A DNA stretch of 64,000 nt from Streptomyces sp. P3 (GTDB taxonomy: Bacteria; Actinomycetota; Actinomycetes; Streptomycetales; Streptomycetaceae). The stretch spans positions 5,270,001 to 5,334,000 of the forward strand of contig NZ_CP028369.1 in NCBI RefSeq assembly GCF_003032475.1, in the 5' to 3' direction. Under the pieces are notes generated by a model that did not search any database, was not told the origin of the DNA, and worked only from the letters and a program-made list of their open reading frames with translations. Numbering within the stretch: position 1 is the first letter of the stretch; the number at the start of each line of letters is the position of its first letter. A program made the translations under genes and the position numbers. Positions 16,051 to 27,292 of the stretch are shown here, piece after piece.

Positions 16051-17454
16051 TCACGGCCGGACGAGCCGGCGGAGCGTGTGGAGGACCTCGATCACCGCGT
16101 CCGCACGGGTGTCGGGGTTCACGAAGGCCATGCGGAGGACCGTTCTGTCGTTCCACCGGGTCGGCACGCACAGCGTGGCGCCCGTCCGGGCGGCCTGCGC
16201 GGACCACGCCGCGTAGTCCCGCGCGCTCCATCCCGGTCGTTCGAAGAGGACGACGGACAACTCGGGTTCGGCCACCAGGCGCAGGTGGTCACTGGCCCGG
16301 ATGGCGTCGGCGACCTGCCGACTGGTGGTCAGGGTCCGCTCCACGGCCGTCGCGTAACGGTCGGTGCCGTGGACGGCCAGACTGAACCAGAACGGCAGGC
16401 CGCGGGCGCGGCGGCTGAGGTGGAGCGCCAGGTCCGACGGATTGTGGACATCGCGGTCGATGGCGTCGAGGTAGTGCGCCGACTGACTGTGCGCGGCCCG
16501 CGCCGGTGCGGGGTCGCGGTAGAGCAGCGCGCAGCAGTCGTACGGTGCGAACAGCCACTTGTGGGGATCGACGATGAAGCTGTCGGCGCGTTCTATGCCG
16601 GTGTAGCGGTGGCGCACGCTGGCGGCGGCCAGGCCGGCTCCGCCGTAGGCGCCGTCGACGTGCAGCCACACGCCGTGGCGTTCACAGGCGTCGGCGATGG
16701 TGTCGAGTTCGTCGACCAGGCCGGCGTTCGTGGTCCCCGCAGTCGCCGCGACGGCGAACACCCCGTCGGTGGCGTCGAGGGCGGCGTTCACGGCGGCTCC
16801 GGTGAGGTGTCCGTGCCGGTCCACGGGTGCGGTGACCACCTTCACGTCCATGGCGCGTGCCGCGGACCGGATCGAGGAGTGCGCGCTGTCGGCGCACACG
16901 ATCTTCCAGCCTCCGGCCGGGCGGGGCCGTTCCGCGGCGGCGGCTCGGGCCGCGACGAGGGCGGAGAGGTTGCCCATGGTGCCGCCGCTGACGAAGCAGC
17001 CTGCCGCGGTGGCGGGCCAGCCGAGCAGCCGGGTGAGCCACCCGAGCGCCTCGTTCTCGGCGTGGATGGCCCCGGCCCCGGCCTCCCAGGTTCCCGCGAA
17101 GATGTTCGCCGCACCGGTGACGGCCTCGAAGGCGAGCGCGGTCCGGGTGGGGGCCGCGGGAATGTAGGCGAGATTCATCGGCCCGTTCTGGGCGCGGGTG
17201 GCGGGCGCCAGTACGCGGTCGAACAGGCCGAGCGCGGCGGCGGCGCCGATACCGGGGGCGGTCACGGTGCTGCCGACGGCTTCGGTCAGTTCGGTCGCGG
17301 GACGGGCGCCCGTCACCGGGTCCGGGTCCTGCCTCAGGAGTTGCCGTGCGTACCGCACGGCAACCGAGACCACCTCGTCCTCGTCGCCCCACACAGGCCC
17401 CTCGGCAGGGAAGACGCTTTTCACTGACATGCCATCGCATGGTGCTTTCTGCAT
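16051..17454 (-). CDS. PLP-dependent amino acid decarboxylase (group II, aromatic/glutamate type)
   Basis: 467 aa with the group II decarboxylase fold. It has G-A-I-H-A-E-N-E-A-L, the cofactor-phosphate segment S-G-G-T-M-G-N-L-S-A-L, H-V-D-G-A-Y-G-G (aspartate to the pyridine nitrogen) and the Schiff-base lysine in I-V-D-P-H-K-W, about residue 299. It decarboxylates an L-amino acid to an amine; whether the substrate is aromatic, glutamate or another is not resolved. It is divergent from an Lrp/AsnC regulator with a 17-bp palindrome between them, so substrate-responsive control is likely. ATG 17454 is used; ATG 17430 is possible. Confidence 0.88.
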   Translation of the reverse strand: MQKAPCDGMSVKSVFPAEGPVWGDEDEVVSVAVRYARQLLRQDPDPVTGARPATELTEAVGSTVTAPGIGAAAALGLFDRVLAPATRAQNGPMNLAYIPAAPTRTALAFEAVTGAANIFAGTWEAGAGAIHAENEALGWLTRLLGWPATAAGCFVSGGTMGNLSALVAARAAAAERPRPAGGWKIVCADSAHSSIRSAARAMDVKVVTAPVDRHGHLTGAAVNAALDATDGVFAVAATAGTTNAGLVDELDTIADACERHGVWLHVDGAYGGAGLAAASVRHRYTGIERADSFIVDPHKWLFAPYDCCALLYRDPAPARAAHSQSAHYLDAIDRDVHNPSDLALHLSRRARGLPFWFSLAVHGTDRYATAVERTLTTSRQVADAIRASDHLRLVAEPELSVVLFERPGWSARDYAAWSAQAARTGATLCVPTRWNDRTVLRMAFVNPDTRADAVIEVLHTLRRLVRP

Positions 17455-17504
17455 GGCGGAAACCTAGGAACGGGCGTCAGTATGCGCAATATGCGTCCAA
17501 TATC

Positions 17505-17521
17505 TTGAGCATAATGCTCAA
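17505..17521. promoter_or_regulatory. Lrp/AsnC operator palindrome
   Basis: TTGAGCAT-A-ATGCTCAA is a perfect 8-bp inverted repeat in the decarboxylase/Lrp intergenic region. It is flanked by the direct repeat TATGCG (17481 and 17490) and by ATGCC...GGCAT. A CATACT -10 (17543-17548) ends 7 nt before the regulator's ATG at 17556. Confidence 0.65.
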
Positions 17522-17555
17522 TGCCGAGTCTGAGCGGCGTGGCATACTGGGCATC

Positions 17556-18026
17556 ATGCGAAACGTGGACGCCGTCGACGCCCGCATCCTCCTCGCGCTC
17601 GACGCAGACCCGCAGGCGACCATCGTCGCCCTGGCCGACCGGCTCGGCCTCGCCCGCAACACGGTCCAGAGCCGGCTGAAGAGGCTCGAGGAAAGCGGCC
17701 ACCTCAAAGAACCCAGCCGCCGCGTCGACCCGGCCGCCCTGGGCTACCCCCTGCTGGCCCTGATCACCCTGTCCATCAGCCAGAGAGTGGGAGAGCCCAC
17801 CCGCGAGGGCATCCTGCGCATCCCCGAAGTCGTCGAACTCCTCGTCACCACCGGCGACGCGGACCTCCTCGCCCGGGTCGTCGCCCGTGACACGACGGAC
17901 CTCCACCGCATCACCAACCACCTCCTCGAAGTCCCCGGCGTCGTCCGCTCCAACACCACCATCGTGCTGATGGAACTGCAGCCCCTCAGCGTGCGCCCGC
18001 TCCTGCGACGCCACACCGGCCCCTGA
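17556..18026 (+). CDS. Lrp/AsnC-family transcriptional regulator (divergent from decarboxylase)
   Basis: 156 aa. An N-terminal helix-turn-helix (D-A-V-D-A-R-I-L-L-A-L-D, L-A-D-R-L-G-L-A-R-N-T-V-Q-S-R-L-K-R-L) is followed by the RAM ligand-binding domain (V-V-E-L-L-V-T-T-G-D-A-D-L-L-A-R-V-V). It probably senses an amino acid and controls the divergent decarboxylase. ATG 17556 is chosen because a -10 lies just upstream and the earlier in-frame ATG (17514) lies inside the operator palindrome. A leaderless message is likely. Confidence 0.9.
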   Translation: MRNVDAVDARILLALDADPQATIVALADRLGLARNTVQSRLKRLEESGHLKEPSRRVDPAALGYPLLALITLSISQRVGEPTREGILRIPEVVELLVTTGDADLLARVVARDTTDLHRITNHLLEVPGVVRSNTTIVLMELQPLSVRPLLRRHTGP

Positions 18027-18206: not shown

Positions 18207-18260
18207 CAGCCGCACCGAACCGGTGATGAACTGCCGGAATCGATGGCTCGGGAGGACAAG

Positions 18261-18761
18261 GTGTCCGAGGGAAACTCGCCGCCGACGGCAGCGGCCGGAC
18301 GCAACGCCGTCCCGCTCGACGACATCGACCGGCAGATCCTCAGTCGGCTCCTCCAGGACGGCCGGATCTCGGTCCGCTCACTCGCCGAGCAGGTGCACAT
18401 CTCCCGGGCCAACGCCTACACCCGCATCGGCCGGCTCGTGGCCGAGGACGTCATCACGGGCTTCACCGCGCAGCTCAACGCCCAGCGAGCGGGTCTGGGC
18501 ACGAGCGCCTACGTCACGATGAGCATCGAGCAGAACGCCTGGCGTGACATCTCCCGCGAACTGCGCCGCATCCCCTACGTGGAGCATGTCGCCCTCGTCA
18601 CCGGCGACTTCGACGTCCTGGTGCTGGTGCGCGCCCCGGACAACCTGGCCCTGCGCAAGGTCGTGCTGGAGAGCATCCAGGCGGTGCCGGGTGTGCGCTC
18701 CACCCGCACCTGGCTCGTCTTCGACGAGGTGCGGGGACGCGGCGCCACCTGGACGGACTGA
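18261..18761 (+). CDS. Lrp/AsnC-family regulator adjacent to the HisC-PaaN-like operon
   Basis: 166 aa with the Lrp helix-turn-helix (L-D-D-I-D-R-Q-I-L-S-R-L-L-Q-D-G-R, R-S-L-A-E-Q-V-H-I-S-R-A-N-A-Y-T-R) and RAM domain (V-A-L-V-T-G-D-F-D-V-L-V-L-V). GTG 18261 is preferred because GGGAGG lies 5-10 nt upstream; ATG 18243 would add six residues but has only a weak site. It converges on the PaaN-like gene (12 bp between stops). It has its own TTGACA promoter and palindrome. It is the likely regulator of the neighbouring aminotransferase operon. Confidence 0.88.
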   Translation: MSEGNSPPTAAAGRNAVPLDDIDRQILSRLLQDGRISVRSLAEQVHISRANAYTRIGRLVAEDVITGFTAQLNAQRAGLGTSAYVTMSIEQNAWRDISRELRRIPYVEHVALVTGDFDVLVLVRAPDNLALRKVVLESIQAVPGVRSTRTWLVFDEVRGRGATWTD

Positions 18762-18773
18762 GGACCGGCGGTT

Positions 18774-20477
18774 TCAGCGGTCCACCAGCTCGGCGGCGGC
18801 CTCGGCGCGCCTCGCGGGCACCGGGACGGGAACCGTCGGCGTGGCGTGCCTGCGTGAGCGCACCACGCGGAACCGTCCGGTGACGAAGTGGGCTCCCCCG
18901 CCCGGCAGATCCGCGAGAGCCGAGGACGGGTCGGCCGGCAGATCGTCCAGATTCTCCACCAGCGGCACTCCGGCGTCGAGCGCCGCCGTCTCGGCCGCCG
19001 CGAGGACCAGCGTGTCGGTGGAGTGCACCGAGGCGTAGAGCGCGCCGTGCCGCGCCACCGTACGCCGCAGGAGCGCCAGGCTGTGCGAGGTGGATTCGGT
19101 GCCGACCAGGAAGGAGATCGGTCCGGGCCACTCCCGCGTGTAGACCTGCTCGTCCGAGGCGCGCAGCCGCACCAGCAGCGGACTGCGCAGTTCGGCGCCC
19201 GGATGACGCGGATGGGGCACCGGGCCGGAGGCGTGCACGACCGGGCCGTACCGTGCGGCCTCGGTCAGCGCGGCGCGCACCTCGTCGGCGGTGGTCGCGC
19301 CCAGCACCCCCGCCGCGCGCGAGGGGTGTCCGAGCAGCCGGTCCACGGCCTCCCCGACGTCGGTTCCCAGGTCACGCAGCGTCTTGTGGCCCTCGTCGGT
19401 GCCGAAGCCGTGCTCCGGCACCAGGATGTTCTGCGGGGTGGTGCGCACCATTCCGTTGCACAGGCAGGAGGAGAGGGCGAGCCCCCTGACCAGGCCCGGG
19501 TAGTCGTCGGTCGAGTCCACCACCACGGTGTTCAGCCCGGTCCGGCTGGCGAACACGGTGGCCTGCGCGGCGTGCCGCTCCAGCCAGTCGGCGACGCGCG
19601 CGGAGCCCGTGAAGTCGACGATCCGTACGGCCGGGTCGGTGGCCAGCCGCAGGTGCACCCGCCGTTCCGGCTCGGCCACGGCGAGTGTCACGAGGTTCGG
19701 GTCGTGGCCGGCCTCCTCCAGCACCTGGCGGGCGACTCGCACGGTGATCGCCAGCGGCAGCACCGAGCGCGGATGCGGGGCGACGACGACGGGGTTGCCG
19801 GTGACCAGGCTGGCGAACAGGCCGGGGTAACCGTTCCAGAGCGGGAAGTCGGGGCAGCCGATGAGCAGCGACACACCACGTGGCACCAGGGTGCAGGTAC
19901 CCCGCAGTGCGAGCGGTGGTCCGCCGCGTCGTCCCGCGCTCTCCCAGTGCAGACCGGACGGCACCCGCTCGGACTCGGCGAAGGCCTGGGCCACCACTTC
20001 GAGCGCACGGTCCTGCGCGCGCGGCCCGGCGGCGTGCAGCGCGGCCCGCAGCGGCTGACCGGTGGTGTGGTGCACCGCGAGGGCCAGTTCGTGACTGCGG
20101 GTGTTGAGCCGCCGCAGGATCTCCACGGCGAGCCCGGCACGCTGACGGGGACCCGCGGCCCGCCAGCCGGGTGCCGCCCGGGCGGCCGCCGCGACCAGCT
20201 CCAAGGGTTCACAGCGGGGATAGGCGATGGCCAGGCCGAGCCCGTACGGCGACGACTCCGTGCGCACACGGGCGACTTCACCGGGCTGCACCAGGTCGAA
20301 GGGGCGCCCCAGCAGCGAGCCGAACACCTTTCCCGCGGTGCGGGTCGACCGCATGCCCGCGTCGGCCGCGTCCTGGACGGTCGCCTCGGCGAAGGGGCGG
20401 TGGCACTCACCGGCGGCGAGGGCGCTGACGACGCTGTGCAACAACTCGCGGTGACGCTCGTAGGGGCCGGGGCGCAT
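18774..20477 (-). CDS. PaaN-family aldehyde dehydrogenase-like protein, catalytic residues lost
   Basis: A 567-aa protein aligning along its length with PaaN, the aldehyde dehydrogenase annotated in phenylacetate degradation: S-P-Y-G...Y-P, G-N-P-V-V-V, P-H-P-R-S-V-L-P-L-A-I-T-V, D-F-T-G-S, V-V-V-D-S-T-D-D-Y, T-T-P-Q-N and R-F-R-V-V-R-S-R-R-H are kept. As I recall the PaaN pattern, the cofactor lysine (V-V-K-P-H-P) is Ala233, the general-base glutamate (T-E-K-A-G) is Ser311, and the nucleophilic cysteine (Q-M-C-T-T-P-Q-N) is Arg345. Loss of all three implies no ordinary dehydrogenase activity. The frame is intact with normal codon use, so it looks selected rather than decayed. It starts 5 bp after the aminotransferase stop, with GGAGAGG before ATG. 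Confidence 0.82.
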   Translation of the reverse strand: MRPGPYERHRELLHSVVSALAAGECHRPFAEATVQDAADAGMRSTRTAGKVFGSLLGRPFDLVQPGEVARVRTESSPYGLGLAIAYPRCEPLELVAAAARAAPGWRAAGPRQRAGLAVEILRRLNTRSHELALAVHHTTGQPLRAALHAAGPRAQDRALEVVAQAFAESERVPSGLHWESAGRRGGPPLALRGTCTLVPRGVSLLIGCPDFPLWNGYPGLFASLVTGNPVVVAPHPRSVLPLAITVRVARQVLEEAGHDPNLVTLAVAEPERRVHLRLATDPAVRIVDFTGSARVADWLERHAAQATVFASRTGLNTVVVDSTDDYPGLVRGLALSSCLCNGMVRTTPQNILVPEHGFGTDEGHKTLRDLGTDVGEAVDRLLGHPSRAAGVLGATTADEVRAALTEAARYGPVVHASGPVPHPRHPGAELRSPLLVRLRASDEQVYTREWPGPISFLVGTESTSHSLALLRRTVARHGALYASVHSTDTLVLAAAETAALDAGVPLVENLDDLPADPSSALADLPGGGAHFVTGRFRVVRSRRHATPTVPVPVPARRAEAAAELVDR

Positions 20478-20482
20478 GGCCG

Positions 20483-21529
20483 TCAGCCTCTCCAGCTCGC
20501 CGCGAGCGCCAGCAGGGCGTCGTTCTCCGCCGGCAGCCCGATCGTCACCCGGACGCCCTCGCCGGGGAACGGGCGCACCAGGACCTGTCCGCCGGCACAG
20601 TGCGACGCGAAGTCCCCGCTGGCCCCGCCGAGCGGCAGCCAGACGAAGTTGGACCGGGAGTCGGGCACGTCGTGGCCCAGCGCCCGCAACCGCCCCAGGA
20701 CGCGTTCGCGTTCGGCGACCGTGAGGGCGGCGCGTCGGGCGACCTCAGCGCCTTCGCCGAGCGCGACGACGGCGGCCCGCTGGGCGAGCGCGCTGACGCT
20801 GAATGGCACCTGCGTCCGGCGCACGAGGGACGCGACCCCGGGCGGCGCGACGCAGTAGCCCACGCGGAGCCCCGCCAGGCCGTAGGCCTTCGAGAAGGTC
20901 CGGAGCACCGCCACGTTCGGCCGGTCGCCGAACAGGGCCAGAGCGTCGGGAACCAGGGCGGGATCGGCGTACTCCCGGTACGCCTCGTCGACGACGATCA
21001 GCACGTCCCGCGGCACCCGGTCGACGAAATCGGTCAGGGCCGGCGCACCGACCGCGGTGGAGGTCGGGTTGTTGGGGTTGCACACGAAGACCAGTCGGGT
21101 GCGCGCGGTGATCGCCGCCGCCATGGCGTCGAGGTCGAGCACCTGCCCGCGCAGCGGCACCCGGACCGGCGTACCGCCCGCCACGGCGGTGAGAATCGGG
21201 TACGCCTCGAACGACCGCCACCCGAAGAGGACCTCGTCGCCGGGACCGACGACCGTGTGCAGCAGCTGGCCGCACACCTCGGACGATCCGGCGCCCATCG
21301 CGATCCGCTCCGGTGCGACCCCGTGATGCGCCGCCAGGGCCTCCACGAGCGAACCGGCGTGCAGGTCGGGATAGCGCGACACGCCGCCGACCGTCTCCAC
21401 GAGGGTCGCGGCCACCCCGGGGAGCAGTCCGTGCGGGGATTCGTTGGCGGCCAGCACGATGGCCCCGGGCTGTTTGCGGCCCGGCACATAGGCGGGCAGC
21501 TGGGACAGAGACGCACGGACACGCACCAT
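20483..21529 (-). CDS. HisC-like PLP aminotransferase (histidinol-phosphate/aromatic type)
   Basis: 348 aa of aminotransferase fold type I, class II (HisC/Pat group): L-A-A-N-E-S-P at the start, G-A-G-S-S-E, the N-P-N-N-P-T block, V-V-D-E-A-Y, the PLP lysine in R-T-F-S-K-A-Y-G-L-A-G-L-R-V-G-Y, and a C-terminal R-P-F arginine. This is probably not the housekeeping hisC, since no histidine genes are near. Phenylalanine/aromatic aminotransferase activity is a common alternative. It heads a two-gene operon with the PaaN-like protein. Start context is weak (AAGCGAG); ATG 21529 is used. Confidence 0.83.
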   Translation of the reverse strand: MVRVRASLSQLPAYVPGRKQPGAIVLAANESPHGLLPGVAATLVETVGGVSRYPDLHAGSLVEALAAHHGVAPERIAMGAGSSEVCGQLLHTVVGPGDEVLFGWRSFEAYPILTAVAGGTPVRVPLRGQVLDLDAMAAAITARTRLVFVCNPNNPTSTAVGAPALTDFVDRVPRDVLIVVDEAYREYADPALVPDALALFGDRPNVAVLRTFSKAYGLAGLRVGYCVAPPGVASLVRRTQVPFSVSALAQRAAVVALGEGAEVARRAALTVAERERVLGRLRALGHDVPDSRSNFVWLPLGGASGDFASHCAGGQVLVRPFPGEGVRVTIGLPAENDALLALAASWRG

Positions 21530-22700: not shown

Positions 22701-23681
22701 TCAGTGCGCCGTGGCGAGGGTGAGCATGAAGCCGGCGTTCGGGTCGGACCAGAGCTGACGGGTGCGAAGGCCCGCCTCGGCCATCTCCTCCCGCAACCCG
22801 GACACGGTGAACTTGGCGCTGCGCTCGGTGATCCATTCCTCTCCGCGCTCGAACTGCACCGCCAGGTCGAGTTCCCGGATCTTCACCAGCTGCTCGGCCC
22901 GACTGCGCAGCCTCATCTCGATGAGACTCTCGGTGCTGTTCCACACCGACACGTGGTCGAAGGCGTCCGGGTCGAAGTCGGCGTCCAGTTCGTGGTTCAG
23001 GACGTGCAGCAGGTTCTTGTCGAACTCGGCCGTGACGCCCTGCGCGTCGTCGTAGGCGGCGATCATCTCGTGCTCCGGCTTGACCAGGTCGGCACCGAGC
23101 AGAAGGAAGTCCTCGGGCCGCATGACGTCCCGGAGCCCGCGGAGGAACGGGCCGCGGGCCGGGCGCCGGAAGTTCCCCAGCGTGCTGCCGAGGAAGGCGA
23201 TGAGCCGTGGGCCCTCCTCGGGCAGCGCCGGCAGCACGAGCGGAGCCGTGAAGTCGGCACGCAGGGCGTGCAGACGGATCCCCGGATAGTCCTGGACGAG
23301 TTGCGCGCCGGCCTGTTGCAGTGCGTCCGCGCTGACGTCGACGGGCACGTAGTGCAGGCCGGCCGGCCCCAGCGCCTCGATGACCAGCTTGGATTTCGTC
23401 GAACTCCCGGACCCCAGCTCGATCATGCTGCGTGCCCCGGTCTGCGCGGCCACGTCCTCGGCGTGGAGCTGGAGCAGTCCCAGTTCCGCCCTCCACAAGG
23501 GGTATTCCGGGAGCTGGGTGATCTCCTCGAAGAGCTCGCTGCCCCGGGCGTCGTAGAACCAGGTGGGTGCCGTGGACTTGGGGGTGCTGGTCAGTCCGCC
23601 GCGGATGTCGGCGCGCAGAGCCCTGGCGTAGTGCTCGGCGTCGAGGGTGTCGGTGTAGCCGTAGGCGCGGGTGCCGGTCAT
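22701..23681 (-). CDS. egtD: L-histidine N-alpha-trimethyltransferase EgtD
   Basis: 326 aa of the EgtD (DUF2260) family: P-K-S-T-A-P-T-W-F-Y-D-A-R-G-S-E-L near the N-terminus, I-E-L-G-S-G-S-S-T-K SAM loop, F-L-G-S-T-L-G-N-F, and the histidine-binding region W-N-S-T-E-S-L-I-E-M-R. It transfers three methyl groups from SAM to histidine to give hercynine, the first committed step to ergothioneine. It is the last gene of egtABCD, joined to egtC by ATGA. No egtE-like lyase follows; another enzyme must cleave the sulfoxide. Confidence 0.95.
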   Translation of the reverse strand: MTGTRAYGYTDTLDAEHYARALRADIRGGLTSTPKSTAPTWFYDARGSELFEEITQLPEYPLWRAELGLLQLHAEDVAAQTGARSMIELGSGSSTKSKLVIEALGPAGLHYVPVDVSADALQQAGAQLVQDYPGIRLHALRADFTAPLVLPALPEEGPRLIAFLGSTLGNFRRPARGPFLRGLRDVMRPEDFLLLGADLVKPEHEMIAAYDDAQGVTAEFDKNLLHVLNHELDADFDPDAFDHVSVWNSTESLIEMRLRSRAEQLVKIRELDLAVQFERGEEWITERSAKFTVSGLREEMAEAGLRTRQLWSDPNAGFMLTLATAH

Positions 23682-24472
23682 GACTGCCTTTCCTCGGATG
23701 GTGCGGGTGCCGTGTCCGCGCTCGGGTCCTTGAGCGGGGTGAGCGCGACGTCGGCGCGGCTCGCCACGAGCAGGGTCCGGTCCGGGACCTCCTGCCAGCG
23801 CGGATCGTCGTCGTACGGTTCGGAGGCCACGGCCACCGTGCCCCCGCCCGGTTCCGTCAGGTACCAGAGGGTGTCGCCCCAGGCGGTCGCGGTGACGGCC
23901 GTCCCGTCGGTGAGCAGCAGGTTGAGCCGCGAGCCGGGGGCCGCGGCGGCGACCTCGAGGACGGTGTCGGTCAGCGACTGGCCCGCCGGGTCCCCGGCGC
24001 GCAGCCGGGCGAGGACCAGCGCCCACACGAAAGCGGAGTCGTTGCGGGCCTCCATGGACAGCAGGTCGGCGGCGGGCAGGGTGCGCGCCAGCGGCTCCAG
24101 CGAGCGCGGCCAGCCGGCGACCGCGCCGTTGTGGCTGAACAGCCAGGCGTCCGCCGCGTACGGGGCCGCCGCGGCCTCCGCGTCGGCGCCGGCCGAGGTG
24201 GCGTCCCGGACGGCGGCCAGCACGGCCCGGCTGCGCACCACCCGGGCCAGGTCGGCGAAGGACAGGTCCGCCCAGATGGGCCCGGCACGGCGGTAGCGGG
24301 CCGGCGTCGGGTCGCCCTCGGCGTACCAGCCCACCCCGAAGCCGTCGGCGTTGACCGTGCCGTGGCGCTGTTGCCGCGGCGCCCACGACTGGCGGTACAG
24401 CGCGTGCGGGGGATCGACGAGGAGCCTGCCGAGCGCCTCCTCGGGCCCCAGGTAGGCGAGGTGACGGCACAT
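23678..24472 (-). CDS. egtC: Ergothioneine biosynthesis gamma-glutamyl hydrolase EgtC
   Basis: 264 aa, class II glutamine-amidotransferase fold. The N-terminal Cys2 in M-C-R-H-L-A-Y is the nucleophile. N-A-D-G-F-G-V-G-W and F-S-H-N-G-A-V are typical substrate-binding stretches. In ergothioneine synthesis it removes glutamate from gamma-glutamyl-cysteinyl hercynine sulfoxide. The start overlaps the egtB stop and its stop overlaps the egtD start, both as ATGA. The C-terminal 20 residues are variable. Confidence 0.94.
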   Translation of the reverse strand: MCRHLAYLGPEEALGRLLVDPPHALYRQSWAPRQQRHGTVNADGFGVGWYAEGDPTPARYRRAGPIWADLSFADLARVVRSRAVLAAVRDATSAGADAEAAAAPYAADAWLFSHNGAVAGWPRSLEPLARTLPAADLLSMEARNDSAFVWALVLARLRAGDPAGQSLTDTVLEVAAAAPGSRLNLLLTDGTAVTATAWGDTLWYLTEPGGGTVAVASEPYDDDPRWQEVPDRTLLVASRADVALTPLKDPSADTAPAPSEERQS

Positions 24473-25845
24473 CAGAAGCCCCCCGAGCGGGCGGTGCGGA
24501 ACCCGGAGAAGATCTGCCGCCGGATCGGATAGTCCCAGTTGCGGAAGGTGCCGCGGCAGGCGACCGGGTCCACCGCGAACGAACCGCCGCGCAGCACCTT
24601 GTGATCGGGCCCGAAGAACACCTCCGAGTACTCCTTGTACGGGAACGCCCGAAACCCCGGGTAGGGGGTGAAGTCGCTGGACGTCCACTCCCAGACGTCG
24701 CCGATCAACTGCCGTACGCCGAGTGGGGAGGCGCCGGCCGGGTAGCTGCCCGCCGGGGCCGGACGCAGATGGCGCTGGCCCAGGTTGGCGTGTTCCGGCG
24801 CGGGATCGGCGTCGCCCCACGGGTAGCGCATCGAGCCGCCGGTAGCGGGGTCGAAGCGGGCCGCCTTCTCCCACTCGGTCTCGGTGGGCAGCCGGCGTCC
24901 GGCCCAGCGGGCGTAGGCGTCGGCCTCGTACCAGCACACGTGCAGCACCGGCTCGTCGGGCGGCACGACCTCGGTGACGCCGAACCGGCGGCGCAGCCAC
25001 TGCCCGCCGTCACGGTGCCAGAACAGCGGCGCGTGGATGCCGTGCCCGCGGACGTGCGCCCAGCCCTCCCTCGTCCACCAGCGTTCCTCGTCGTAACCGC
25101 CGTCCTCGATGAACGCCTGGTAGGCCGCGTTCGTCACCGGGATCGTGTCGATGTGGAAGGGCGCCACCTCACGCCGGTGGGCGGGGCGTTCGTTGTCCAG
25201 GGCCCAGGGCTCGCCGGACGTGCCCATGGTGAACGGGCCACCGGGGACCAGCACTTCGGCCGGGCCGGTGAACAGCGGGACCGGTTCGGGGTCGGGGGCG
25301 GTGAGCACCGGTGGCCCCGTGCGGAGCTGATGGGTGATCAGCATGGTCTCGTCGTGCTGCTGTTCGTGCTGCGCGATCATCCCGAAGGCGAAGCCGGACT
25401 CCGTCAGCCGGGTGCCGTGGAAGTCGGCCGACTCCAGCACGTCGGTGACCCGGCCGCGCACCTCCGCCGCGTACCGGCGGGCCTCCGCGGGCGGCAGCAG
25501 GGGCAGCGAGGGGCGTTCGGCGCGCGAGTGCTCGAAGGCGTCGTACAGGCCGTCGATCTCGGGGCGCATCGCCTCCCGGCCGGCCACCGCGCGCAGCAGC
25601 CACAGCTCCTCCTGGTTGCCGATGTGGGCGAGGTCCCACACCAGCGGGGACATCAGCGGGGAGTGCTGGGCGGTGAGGTCGGGTTCCTCGACGCAGGTGG
25701 TCAGCAGCGTCGTGCGGGCGCGGGCCGTCGTGAGCGAGGCGAGCGCGCGGGCGCGCAGCACGTCCGCGTCCGGGGCGGCCATGTTCGAGGCGGGCGCGGC
25801 GTCCGCGGCGGGTGCGGGCTCCGCGTCCAGGGCGGGCTCGGTCAT
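24472..25845 (-). CDS. egtB: Iron-dependent sulfoxide synthase EgtB
   Basis: 457 aa: an N-terminal DinB-like domain and a C-terminal formylglycine-generating-enzyme/sulfatase-modifying fold. Iron ligands expected for EgtB are His74 (W-D-L-A-H-I-G) and His160/His164 in Q-H-E-Q-Q-H-D-E. The FGE part has G-G-P-F-T-M-G, P-V-T-N-A-A-Y, L-P-T-E-T-E-W-E-K-A-A and G-D-V-W-E-W-T. It joins hercynine to gamma-glutamylcysteine with O2. An Ala-rich N-terminal extension of about 25 residues is unlike the core. It is coupled to egtA and egtC by ATGA overlaps. Confidence 0.95.
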   Translation of the reverse strand: MTEPALDAEPAPAADAAPASNMAAPDADVLRARALASLTTARARTTLLTTCVEEPDLTAQHSPLMSPLVWDLAHIGNQEELWLLRAVAGREAMRPEIDGLYDAFEHSRAERPSLPLLPPAEARRYAAEVRGRVTDVLESADFHGTRLTESGFAFGMIAQHEQQHDETMLITHQLRTGPPVLTAPDPEPVPLFTGPAEVLVPGGPFTMGTSGEPWALDNERPAHRREVAPFHIDTIPVTNAAYQAFIEDGGYDEERWWTREGWAHVRGHGIHAPLFWHRDGGQWLRRRFGVTEVVPPDEPVLHVCWYEADAYARWAGRRLPTETEWEKAARFDPATGGSMRYPWGDADPAPEHANLGQRHLRPAPAGSYPAGASPLGVRQLIGDVWEWTSSDFTPYPGFRAFPYKEYSEVFFGPDHKVLRGGSFAVDPVACRGTFRNWDYPIRRQIFSGFRTARSGGF

Positions 25846-27143
25846 GGGCGGAGGTCCTTCCCGTGCGCGCGGGCGTCCGTGCCGCGCAGGCGGTCGAGCT
25901 GGTCGTCGGCGGGGGTGCGTCCCTTGATGACGTAGCGGTCCCGGTAGTCCGTCACGGCCTCCAGCACGGCGTCGTCTGCGCCGAGGCGGGGCAGGGCACG
26001 CAGGGCGGCGGCGAAGCAGGCGACCGCCGTCTCGTGCAGTTCGGGGTCGGTCAGCGCGTGCCGGGCCGCGTCGATCCACAGCGGATTGTGCGGGGCGGGC
26101 AGTGGCCGGGCCCGCTCGGCCAGCGGCTTGACCGCGCGGTAGGCGAACTCGGCGGCCTCCGGGTCCTCGAACAGGGCCGTCGTCACGGCGAGCGGCACGA
26201 TCCAGCCGTCGTCGCCGGGCTGCGCGTCGATCATGCGCAGCTCCAGATGGCCGCGCGGTCTGACCGGCGGGAACAAGGTGGTGAGGTGGTAGTCGAGATC
26301 CTCCCGGGTCGGCTCGCCCGTTCGGGTCCACTGGCGGAAGGTGAGGCGGTCGGGCACCTCCCAGGCCCCGCCGGCACGCCGCACGCACATCACCGGCGCG
26401 TCCAGCACGTGCCGTGCCCAGGCCGCGCGGGGATCGCCGTCCATGGCCGGCCCGCCCGCGCGGCCGGCACCGATCTCCATCCACAGCAGCTGCCGCGTGG
26501 AGCGCCAGCCGGTGGGGGCGCCGCCGAGCAGCGGGGAGTTGGCGAAGGCCGCCACCAGTACCGCGCCCAGCGTGTGCGACAGCCACCAGCGCCGGCCGTG
26601 CCCGAGCGGGCCCGGTTCCTCGTACCCGGCGTCCAGGCAGACCTGCACGGAGGCCGAGGTGCACATCATGGCGCGGCCCGCCGGCCCGGTGCGGTCGAGG
26701 CAGGACTCCATGGCGTCGTAGCGGGGCTCGTGCAGGAACCGGCGCGGTGTGTGCCAGGGGTCGGTTCCCATGCCGACGAGGGTGAGTCCCCGCTCGCGCA
26801 GGGCGGCGCGGACCGCGGCCAGGTCGGCGGAGACGGTGTGCACGCACTCCATGAGGGAGGCGGCGGGCGGCGAGCTCAGCTCCAGCTGACCGCCGGGTTC
26901 GACGGTGAGCGGCGAGCGCAGTGGCACGTCCCGCAGGGCGGCGTAGGCCGCTTCGAGCCGATCGGGTGTGACGGGGAGCTGCGGCGTGTGCAGCTCGTGG
27001 ACGAGCCACTCCACCTCGACCCCGACGGTGCGGGGCGGGCCGGTCTTGAAGCAGATTCCCCTGACCAGCGCCTCCACCTCGGCTTCGGTGACGGCGATGC
27101 GCGGCTCTGCTCCGTTCGTACAGTCGCTTACCGAGTCGGACAT
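25842..27143 (-). CDS. egtA: Glutamate-cysteine ligase EgtA
   Basis: 433 aa of the GCS2-type ligase family (V-G-V-E-V-E-W-L-V, G-G-Q-L-E-L-S-S-P, M-C-T-S-A-S-V-Q-V, E-L-R-M-I-D-A-Q-P). It makes gamma-glutamylcysteine, the sulfur donor used by EgtB. ATG 27143 is preceded by AGGAGG at 6-7 nt spacing, clearly better than the upstream in-frame codons. It is the first gene of egtABCD. A perfect 11-bp-arm hairpin sits in its leader and a PHO-box-like element lies 150 bp upstream. Confidence 0.95.
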   Translation of the reverse strand: MSDSVSDCTNGAEPRIAVTEAEVEALVRGICFKTGPPRTVGVEVEWLVHELHTPQLPVTPDRLEAAYAALRDVPLRSPLTVEPGGQLELSSPPAASLMECVHTVSADLAAVRAALRERGLTLVGMGTDPWHTPRRFLHEPRYDAMESCLDRTGPAGRAMMCTSASVQVCLDAGYEEPGPLGHGRRWWLSHTLGAVLVAAFANSPLLGGAPTGWRSTRQLLWMEIGAGRAGGPAMDGDPRAAWARHVLDAPVMCVRRAGGAWEVPDRLTFRQWTRTGEPTREDLDYHLTTLFPPVRPRGHLELRMIDAQPGDDGWIVPLAVTTALFEDPEAAEFAYRAVKPLAERARPLPAPHNPLWIDAARHALTDPELHETAVACFAAALRALPRLGADDAVLEAVTDYRDRYVIKGRTPADDQLDRLRGTDARAHGKDLRP

Positions 27144-27174
27144 GTCGGGATCCTCCTGAGATTCCACCATGCCA

Positions 27175-27203
27175 CCGGTCCGGCCTCGGTGCGGCCGGAC
27201 CGG
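27175..27203 (-). promoter_or_regulatory. Leader hairpin upstream of egtA
   Basis: CCGGTCCGGCC (27175-27185) and GGCCGGACCGG (27193-27203) pair perfectly around a 7-nt loop, about 15 nt before the egtA Shine-Dalgarno sequence. It could attenuate transcription or stabilise the leader. Confidence 0.5.
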
Positions 27204-27292
27204 CAGAGCTCGTTCCACCCAAGACCCTGGATCCGATTCGCACAAGGGTGCACATCGGCACTTTCAGGACAGTGAAGCCCGGATTCCGTGCG

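Follow-up and report, generated by a model that had tools for sequence, protein, structure and literature searches.

The 64,000-nucleotide stretch of Streptomyces sp. P3 DNA analyzed here (contig NZ_CP028369.1, positions 5,270,001 to 5,334,000; hereafter the window) encodes a paralog of PaaN, the phenylacetate-pathway aldehyde dehydrogenase (ALDH), whose cofactor-Lys and nucleophile positions are replaced throughout a clade of proteins under purifying selection, the general-base position being replaced as well but variable. This protein is called PaaN* (Ala/x/Arg-type PaaN paralog), a name coined in this analysis, as is Lrp2 for a regulator encoded next to it. The residues lost from its active site suggest that aldehyde oxidation has been abandoned, and we give roughly even weight to the view that PaaN* is a non-dehydrogenase that serves the breakdown of phenylalanine and phenylacetate by binding a ligand or a partner. 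No earlier report of PaaN* was found in the PMC literature as judged by titles and the openings of abstracts, a coverage that leaves out subscription papers.

Fold and Catalytic Positions of PaaN*

The gene and the three codons at which it departs from the catalytic residues of canonical PaaN are as follows.

18774..20477, minus strand: PaaN*, open reading frame (ORF) from 20477 down to 18774, 567 residues, Ala/x/Arg-type PaaN paralog
19779..19781, minus strand: Ala233 codon (gcc), where canonical PaaN has its cofactor Lys
19545..19547, minus strand: Ser311 codon, where canonical PaaN has its general-base Glu; the site drifts within the clade
19443..19445, minus strand: Arg345 codon (cgc), where canonical PaaN has its nucleophilic Cys

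The ORF starts with ATG and runs without an internal stop over its 567 codons, in agreement with the intact frame claimed in a preliminary description of this DNA. The best match of PaaN* among PDB sequences (phmmer) is 5uju_A, at 452 bits over residues 6–549, which bears out the earlier statement that the PaaN framework is kept; 5uju_A is the NAD-dependent ALDH of Burkholderia multivorans, a PaaN. The PaaN fold spans the full length of the protein and is predicted to be intact. The ALDH superfamily model PF00171 gives 75.3 bits against a Pfam gathering score of 23, and no domain beyond PF00171, and no C-terminal hydratase domain, was found within the 567 residues. The NCBIfam model PaaN_2 (TIGR02288) gives PaaN* 545.4 bits, below its curated cut-off of 578.75, and all five other clade members scanned fall at 542–555 bits. 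The same cut-off is passed by P0059, P0064, and P0068, three relatives described below (607–643 bits), and by both proteins scanned that have Lys, Glu, and Cys at the three catalytic positions (K/E/C). A canonical PaaN with Lys/Glu/Cys is also encoded in the same genome, at 2.197 Mb, and reaches 988 bits for PaaN_2.

In the phmmer alignment, the motifs VIVKPHP, VYTEKAG, and GQMCTAPQN of 5uju_A lie opposite VVVAPHP, VFASRTG, and GMVRTTPQN of PaaN*, corresponding to the substitutions Lys to Ala233, Glu to Ser311, and Cys to Arg345. A MAFFT alignment of 120 homologs together with the genome's own canonical PaaN reproduces the same three columns, confirming the triple replacement described at the outset.

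Conservation and Descent of the Clade

Three protein searches (the best 120 matches listed in each, of thousands) yielded 224 distinct proteins, which with 10 locus rows made 234 rows: 170 with K/E/C, 58 with Ala/x/Arg (A/x/R), and six with K/T/C or K/T/S. Ala233 and Arg345 are present in 57/57 of the closest proteins (P0001–P0057, query included, 69–100% identity; the most similar among the matches listed), and 170 of the other 177 rows are K/E/C. The 58th A/x/R row is P0068 (56% identity). All A/x/R proteins that carry an organism name are from Streptomyces. Position 311 is not fixed in the 57, being occupied by Asn (20), Asp (12), His (10), Gln (5), Ser (4), Thr (3), Glu (1), Tyr (1), and Gly (1); conservation of the set Ala/Ser/Arg, put forward as a check in the preliminary description, thus holds for its first and last members and fails for Ser311. 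In P0030, a member of the clade, Glu stands at 311, yet Ala233 and Arg345 are kept.

The replacements extend beyond these positions. Arg312, Cys338, and Pro451 are invariant in the 57, and position 296 is occupied by Ala (55) or Val (2). The corresponding residues of the 170 K/E/C rows are Lys (170) at 312, Ser (151) or Ala (19) at 338, Phe (170) at 451, and Gly (170) at 296. Gly314 and Gly342 are common to all 227 proteins, and the cofactor Glu (449) is kept in 53/57 PaaN*. Compared with PaaN_2 (TIGR02288; structure 5uju), a stand-alone phenylacetate-pathway ALDH, PaaN* has lost the cofactor Lys, the second loop Gly, the pocket Phe, the general-base Glu, and the nucleophilic Cys. The roles given here to the cofactor Lys and Glu, loop Gly, pocket Phe, and oligomerization hairpin are those general to the ALDH family. 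Within the 57, 227/567 positions are at least 95% conserved.

A further difference from PaaN_2, which has Thr where PaaN* has an acid, concerns the oxyanion position.

19848..19850, minus strand: Asp210 codon (gac), superfamily oxyanion-Asn position, Thr in canonical PaaN

The oxyanion Asn aligns with position 210 in 4/5 alignments with solved ALDHs, the fifth being that with 5uju, itself a PaaN, which has Thr. The oxyanion Asn of PaaZ (Escherichia coli and Pannonibacter), described together with its Cys and Glu in PMC7497051, cited here and below from excerpts, is also placed at 210, and three MAFFT modes agree. Asn215 was considered as a retained oxyanion Asn and rejected, the alignments with solved ALDHs and PaaZ placing the Asn at 210. 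This position is Asp in 52 and Glu in five of the 57 PaaN*, and the acid/Arg pair (210/345) is accordingly fixed in all of them. An oxyanion-hole Asn does not separate PaaN* from canonical PaaN, the former having Asp210 and the latter Thr. The Thr, present in 170/170 K/E/C rows as against the Asn of solved ALDHs and PaaZ, is an observation in its own right that could bear on what canonical PaaN does.

Six Streptomyces PaaNs (P0058–P0062 and P0064) have Thr in place of the catalytic Glu and keep the Lys; in two of them the Cys is also changed to Ser. These proteins are relatives of PaaN* and natural intermediates, and such lineages, with Glu lost and Lys kept, represent natural steps between enzyme and non-enzyme. 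In a maximum likelihood tree of 60 rows, calculated with eight signature columns removed and in agreement with the tree from all columns, the 28 sampled sequences without K/E/C all fall on one side of a branch with 100/100 support. The 21 sampled A/x/R rows are grouped at 100/100, as are P0058–P0062. Because all sequences without K/E/C group together, the Glu probably disappeared early, before the Lys and the Cys. At 210, P0058–P0062 have Asp, combined with a Cys or Ser at 345, P0064 has Val, and P0068 has Thr together with Arg345, so the acid arose before, or apart from, the Arg. The Ala and Arg of P0068 may have been gained separately or may share a single origin with the A/x/R clade; forcing P0068 to group with that clade costs 12.5 log-likelihood units (p-AU 0.07). 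The six K/T/C or K/T/S proteins and P0068 had no match, under strict limits, in 391 genomes or in 394 genomes of the family.

Selection on PaaN*

The median ratio of nonsynonymous to synonymous change (dN/dS) of PaaN* is 0.259 (33 rows), compared with 0.245 for the active paralog, and no internal stop occurs among the 33 rows used. Purifying selection on PaaN* is thus about as strong as on the active paralog. Between the PaaN* genes of two relatives, G013 and G225, 24 nonsynonymous and 60 synonymous changes give a dN/dS of 0.153. Sequencing error and recent decay were considered and are unlikely given 57 proteins with the same replacements and the dN/dS values. With its catalytic residues missing and the gene conserved under purifying selection, PaaN* is a probable pseudoenzyme. 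The suggestion of a retained pseudoenzyme made earlier gains from the clade-wide replacements, the predicted fold, and the selection data; it is refined in that only the Lys and Cys replacements are fixed, the Glu site being variable, and in that the HisC-like neighbor is dispensable (below).

Gene Neighborhood

PaaN* lies between an aminotransferase gene and a regulator gene.

20483..21529, minus strand: HisC-like aminotransferase (NF002878/PRK03321, 462 bits against a cut-off of 374), 348 residues, 5 nt upstream of PaaN*
18243..18761, plus strand: Lrp/AsnC-type regulator (Lrp2), its ORF converging on that of PaaN* across a gap of 12 nt

The HisC-like stop codon (20485–20483) and the PaaN* ATG at 20477 are 5 nt apart, as expected of the tight operon proposed earlier. 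At 20 loci from genome contigs, the HisC-like gene is present in 20/20 and the Lrp gene in 19/20; at the remaining locus (L010) no Lrp match was found, though only ∼1.5 kb is present beyond PaaN*. In a sample of 392 Streptomyces genomes, 20 of the 30 best matches examined were PaaN* loci, each of them encoding the Ala and the Arg, and here the HisC-like gene is found in 18/20 and the Lrp gene in 20/20. The two locus samples overlap, seven contigs having the same length in both.

Beyond the Lrp gene, in stretches of 16–19 kb, a 2-oxoacid dehydrogenase E1α gene is found in 16/20 loci, phenylacetate-type genes in 14/20, and canonical PaaN in 13/20; all three are absent beside PaaN* in 4/20, the window included. 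These labels were assigned by eye and partly checked by a family scan of ten representatives, in which E1α, thiolase (general model), PaaA, PaaB, and PaaC passed NCBIfam cut-offs, and E1β, E2, hydratase, and 3-hydroxyacyl-coenzyme A (CoA) dehydrogenase matched such families below cut-off. One neighboring protein of 579 residues had no family match at the limit used. Going by family names, the order aminotransferase, oxoacid dehydrogenase, phenylacetyl-CoA oxygenase would fit a route from phenylalanine to phenylacetyl-CoA. Two PaaN* clusters (L058 and L105) showed no canonical PaaN in the interval from the E2 gene to the thiolase gene.

On the other side of the aminotransferase gene, upstream of PaaN* and on the same strand, positions 22701–27245 of the window hold what we take to be EgtA-D-like ergothioneine biosynthesis genes. 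The HisC-like gene of G013 and G225 is cut to an open remnant of 58 residues before PaaN*, with start and stop kept.

L065:10870-11150 and L098:9204-9492: HisC-like remnants, at matching places in the two relatives

The distance from PaaN* to EgtD is correspondingly 2222 bp in the window as against 1334 and 1387 bp in G013 and G225. Because PaaN* of these two relatives is intact, with the low dN/dS given above, it has been kept without its HisC-like neighbor, and the aminotransferase is dispensable for retention of PaaN*. The window genome encodes a second aminotransferase of the HisC-like kind, 52% identical to the first, and a counterpart in G013 and G225, if present, might stand in for the truncated gene. 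Beside the PaaN* locus, within 16051–18026 of the window, a group II pyridoxal phosphate-dependent decarboxylase gene (PF00282, minus strand) is divergent from a second Lrp/AsnC regulator gene (plus strand, to 18026), and the same pair occurs in G013 and G225.

Comparison with Known Systems

To our knowledge, most described dead ALDHs are either animal proteins or the fused PaaZ2 found in marine bacteria. In fused PaaZ2, the hydratase domain can explain retention; PaaN* has no second domain and its conservation therefore needs a reason of its own. In the ALDH domain of Phaeobacter PaaZ2, an Arg replaces the predicted catalytic Cys (excerpt of PMC7497051). The four PaaZ2 sequences compared here all show Glu to Cys, Cys to Arg, Asn to Asp, and second loop Gly to Ala; the Lys is replaced by Cys in three and Arg in one, and the cofactor Glu by Phe or Leu in 4/4. 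At three of these positions PaaN* matches PaaZ2 in its acid, its Arg, and its Ala, although the first site is Thr, not Asn, in canonical PaaN. Both proteins have also lost the Lys and Glu, both are paralogs found beside an active enzyme, and both would belong to the same pathway, as the ECH domain of PaaZ2 and published work on it indicate. The two are remote (23% identity over 349 residues), and PaaZ2, which sits beside the tropodithietic acid cluster in Phaeobacter, lacks the cofactor Glu and carries a hydratase domain at its C terminus, whereas PaaN* is single-domain with the cofactor Glu largely kept. The acid/Arg/Ala pattern common to them is a convergence open to probing. Between Phaeobacter inhibens and Phaeobacter porticola, the ALDH domain of PaaZ2 is 71% and the hydratase domain 94% identical, and because the former evolves faster its residues may reflect drift.

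The animal dead ALDH, ALDH16A1, likewise has an ALDH fold without catalytic residues (PMC10650815, excerpt); it has other partners, whereas PaaN* is bacterial and mostly found in a catabolic gene cluster. Synteny of the core Streptomyces PaaN in the bkd region has been reported, with Lrp-type and 2-oxoacid dehydrogenase neighbors reminiscent of those of PaaN* (PMC13118837, excerpt), but the copy in this genome keeps Lys/Glu/Cys. Elsewhere, plasmids of Vitreoscilla filiformis, Alloyangia pacifica, and Paracoccus denitrificans (NZ_CP022424, NZ_CP022193, and NZ_CP141054) encode PaaN_2 and a bifunctional PaaZ ∼4–12 kb apart. PaaN may thus not simply replace the ALDH step of PaaZ.

Proposed Role of PaaN* and Alternative Explanations

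In the role that we favor, PaaN* would act by binding, as a non-catalytic partner in the pathway. Asp/Glu210 and Arg345 would form an ion pair that fills the former catalytic center or binds a charged group. PaaN* might form a complex with an enzyme of the pathway, whether active PaaN or a different one, or might use its remaining tunnel to hold a reactive CoA-linked intermediate, and could so tune flux around ring opening. It would represent a stand-alone dead ALDH under selection, mostly beside a well studied catabolic pathway and, at least in the window genome, together with the active paralog, which makes the role of a dead ALDH on its own testable in Streptomyces.

Several observations weigh against this role. 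The oxyanion position is altered too, which bears on whether the substrate pocket is retained. The consensus of hairpin 175–199, presumably the oligomerization element by ALDH anatomy, is 40% identical to canonical PaaN compared with 73% for the C-terminal strand, and this divergence disfavors easy mixing with PaaN. The acid at 210 and Arg345 are not strictly coupled, as P0058–P0062 and P0068 demonstrate. G013, G225, and G294 have no phenylacetate or 2-oxoacid dehydrogenase genes beside PaaN*, and those found in the window genome lie 3 Mb away. Some PaaN-type match occurs in 387/392 sampled genomes, making co-occurrence with active PaaN little informative. Finally, the substrate of canonical PaaN is uncertain because some plasmids carry both PaaN and PaaZ.

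It is possible, if rather doubtful, that PaaN* is instead a new non-redox enzyme in which Asp/Glu210 and Arg345 bind or polarize a charged or carbonyl group, for example in condensation of the ring-opened semialdehyde to a seven-membered ring, in isomerization, or in hydration. The acid at 210, Arg312, Cys338, and Arg345 are present in 57/57 while the general-base site drifts, as in a rebuilt site, and the same acid and Arg occur in 4/4 PaaZ2 of the tropodithietic acid producers (Phaeobacter). Moreover, the PaaZ E256Q variant accumulates a seven-ring precursor and an Azoarcus deletion mutant of PacL, a stand-alone ALDH, yields tropone, such that the seven-ring product and tropone arise when PaaZ-ALDH or PacL function is lost; the condensation is, however, described as spontaneous (all from excerpts of PMC7497051). 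In addition, PaaZ2 keeps its hydratase domain while its ALDH domain changes fast, and the acid and Arg may do nothing there, and the change from Cys to Arg is possible by one base (TGC to CGC). A more specific proposal, that the ALDH scaffold, in a remodeling separate from that of PaaZ2, became a dedicated non-redox enzyme or a holding protein that steers the ring-opened phenylacetate intermediate from oxidation to seven-membered-ring products, is unlikely; if true, evolution would have arrived repeatedly at the same answer to this branch point, an acid at the oxyanion position combined with Arg in place of the nucleophile.

A role of PaaN* in the service of the adjoining aminotransferase, as chaperone, subunit, or keto-acid carrier, would account for the 5-nt spacing and for the HisC-like gene at 20/20 contig and 18/20 genome-sample loci. 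It appears improbable, as G013 and G225 keep only the 58-residue remnant with PaaN* intact and under selection.

Relocation of the nucleophile within a thiol-dependent aldehyde-handling enzyme is less probable still.

19464..19466, minus strand: Cys338 codon, Cys in 57/57 of the clade and 0/170 K/E/C rows

Cys338 is also absent from the intermediates (0/7), as would suit a nucleophile particular to PaaN*, and Cys340 is present in 51/57. Neither residue, both named in the preliminary description as candidate nucleophiles, aligns with the catalytic Cys: they lie opposite Ser/Ala and Tyr of canonical PaaN, 7 and 5 residues upstream of it, with Cys338 at the end of the preceding predicted helix. 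Cys340 occurs in 7/7 intermediates, four of which still have the old Cys, and therefore did not arise as its replacement. PaaN* also differs from the canonical enzyme at the cofactor Lys, the second loop Gly, the pocket Phe, and the general base.

The idea that PaaN* is a decaying paralog without function draws on the lost catalytic residues, the drift at 311, and the variation at several formerly conserved positions, but is largely refuted and very improbable given the stop-free 33 rows, their median dN/dS, the 227 highly conserved positions, and the dN/dS of 0.153 between relatives that lack most of the HisC-like gene.
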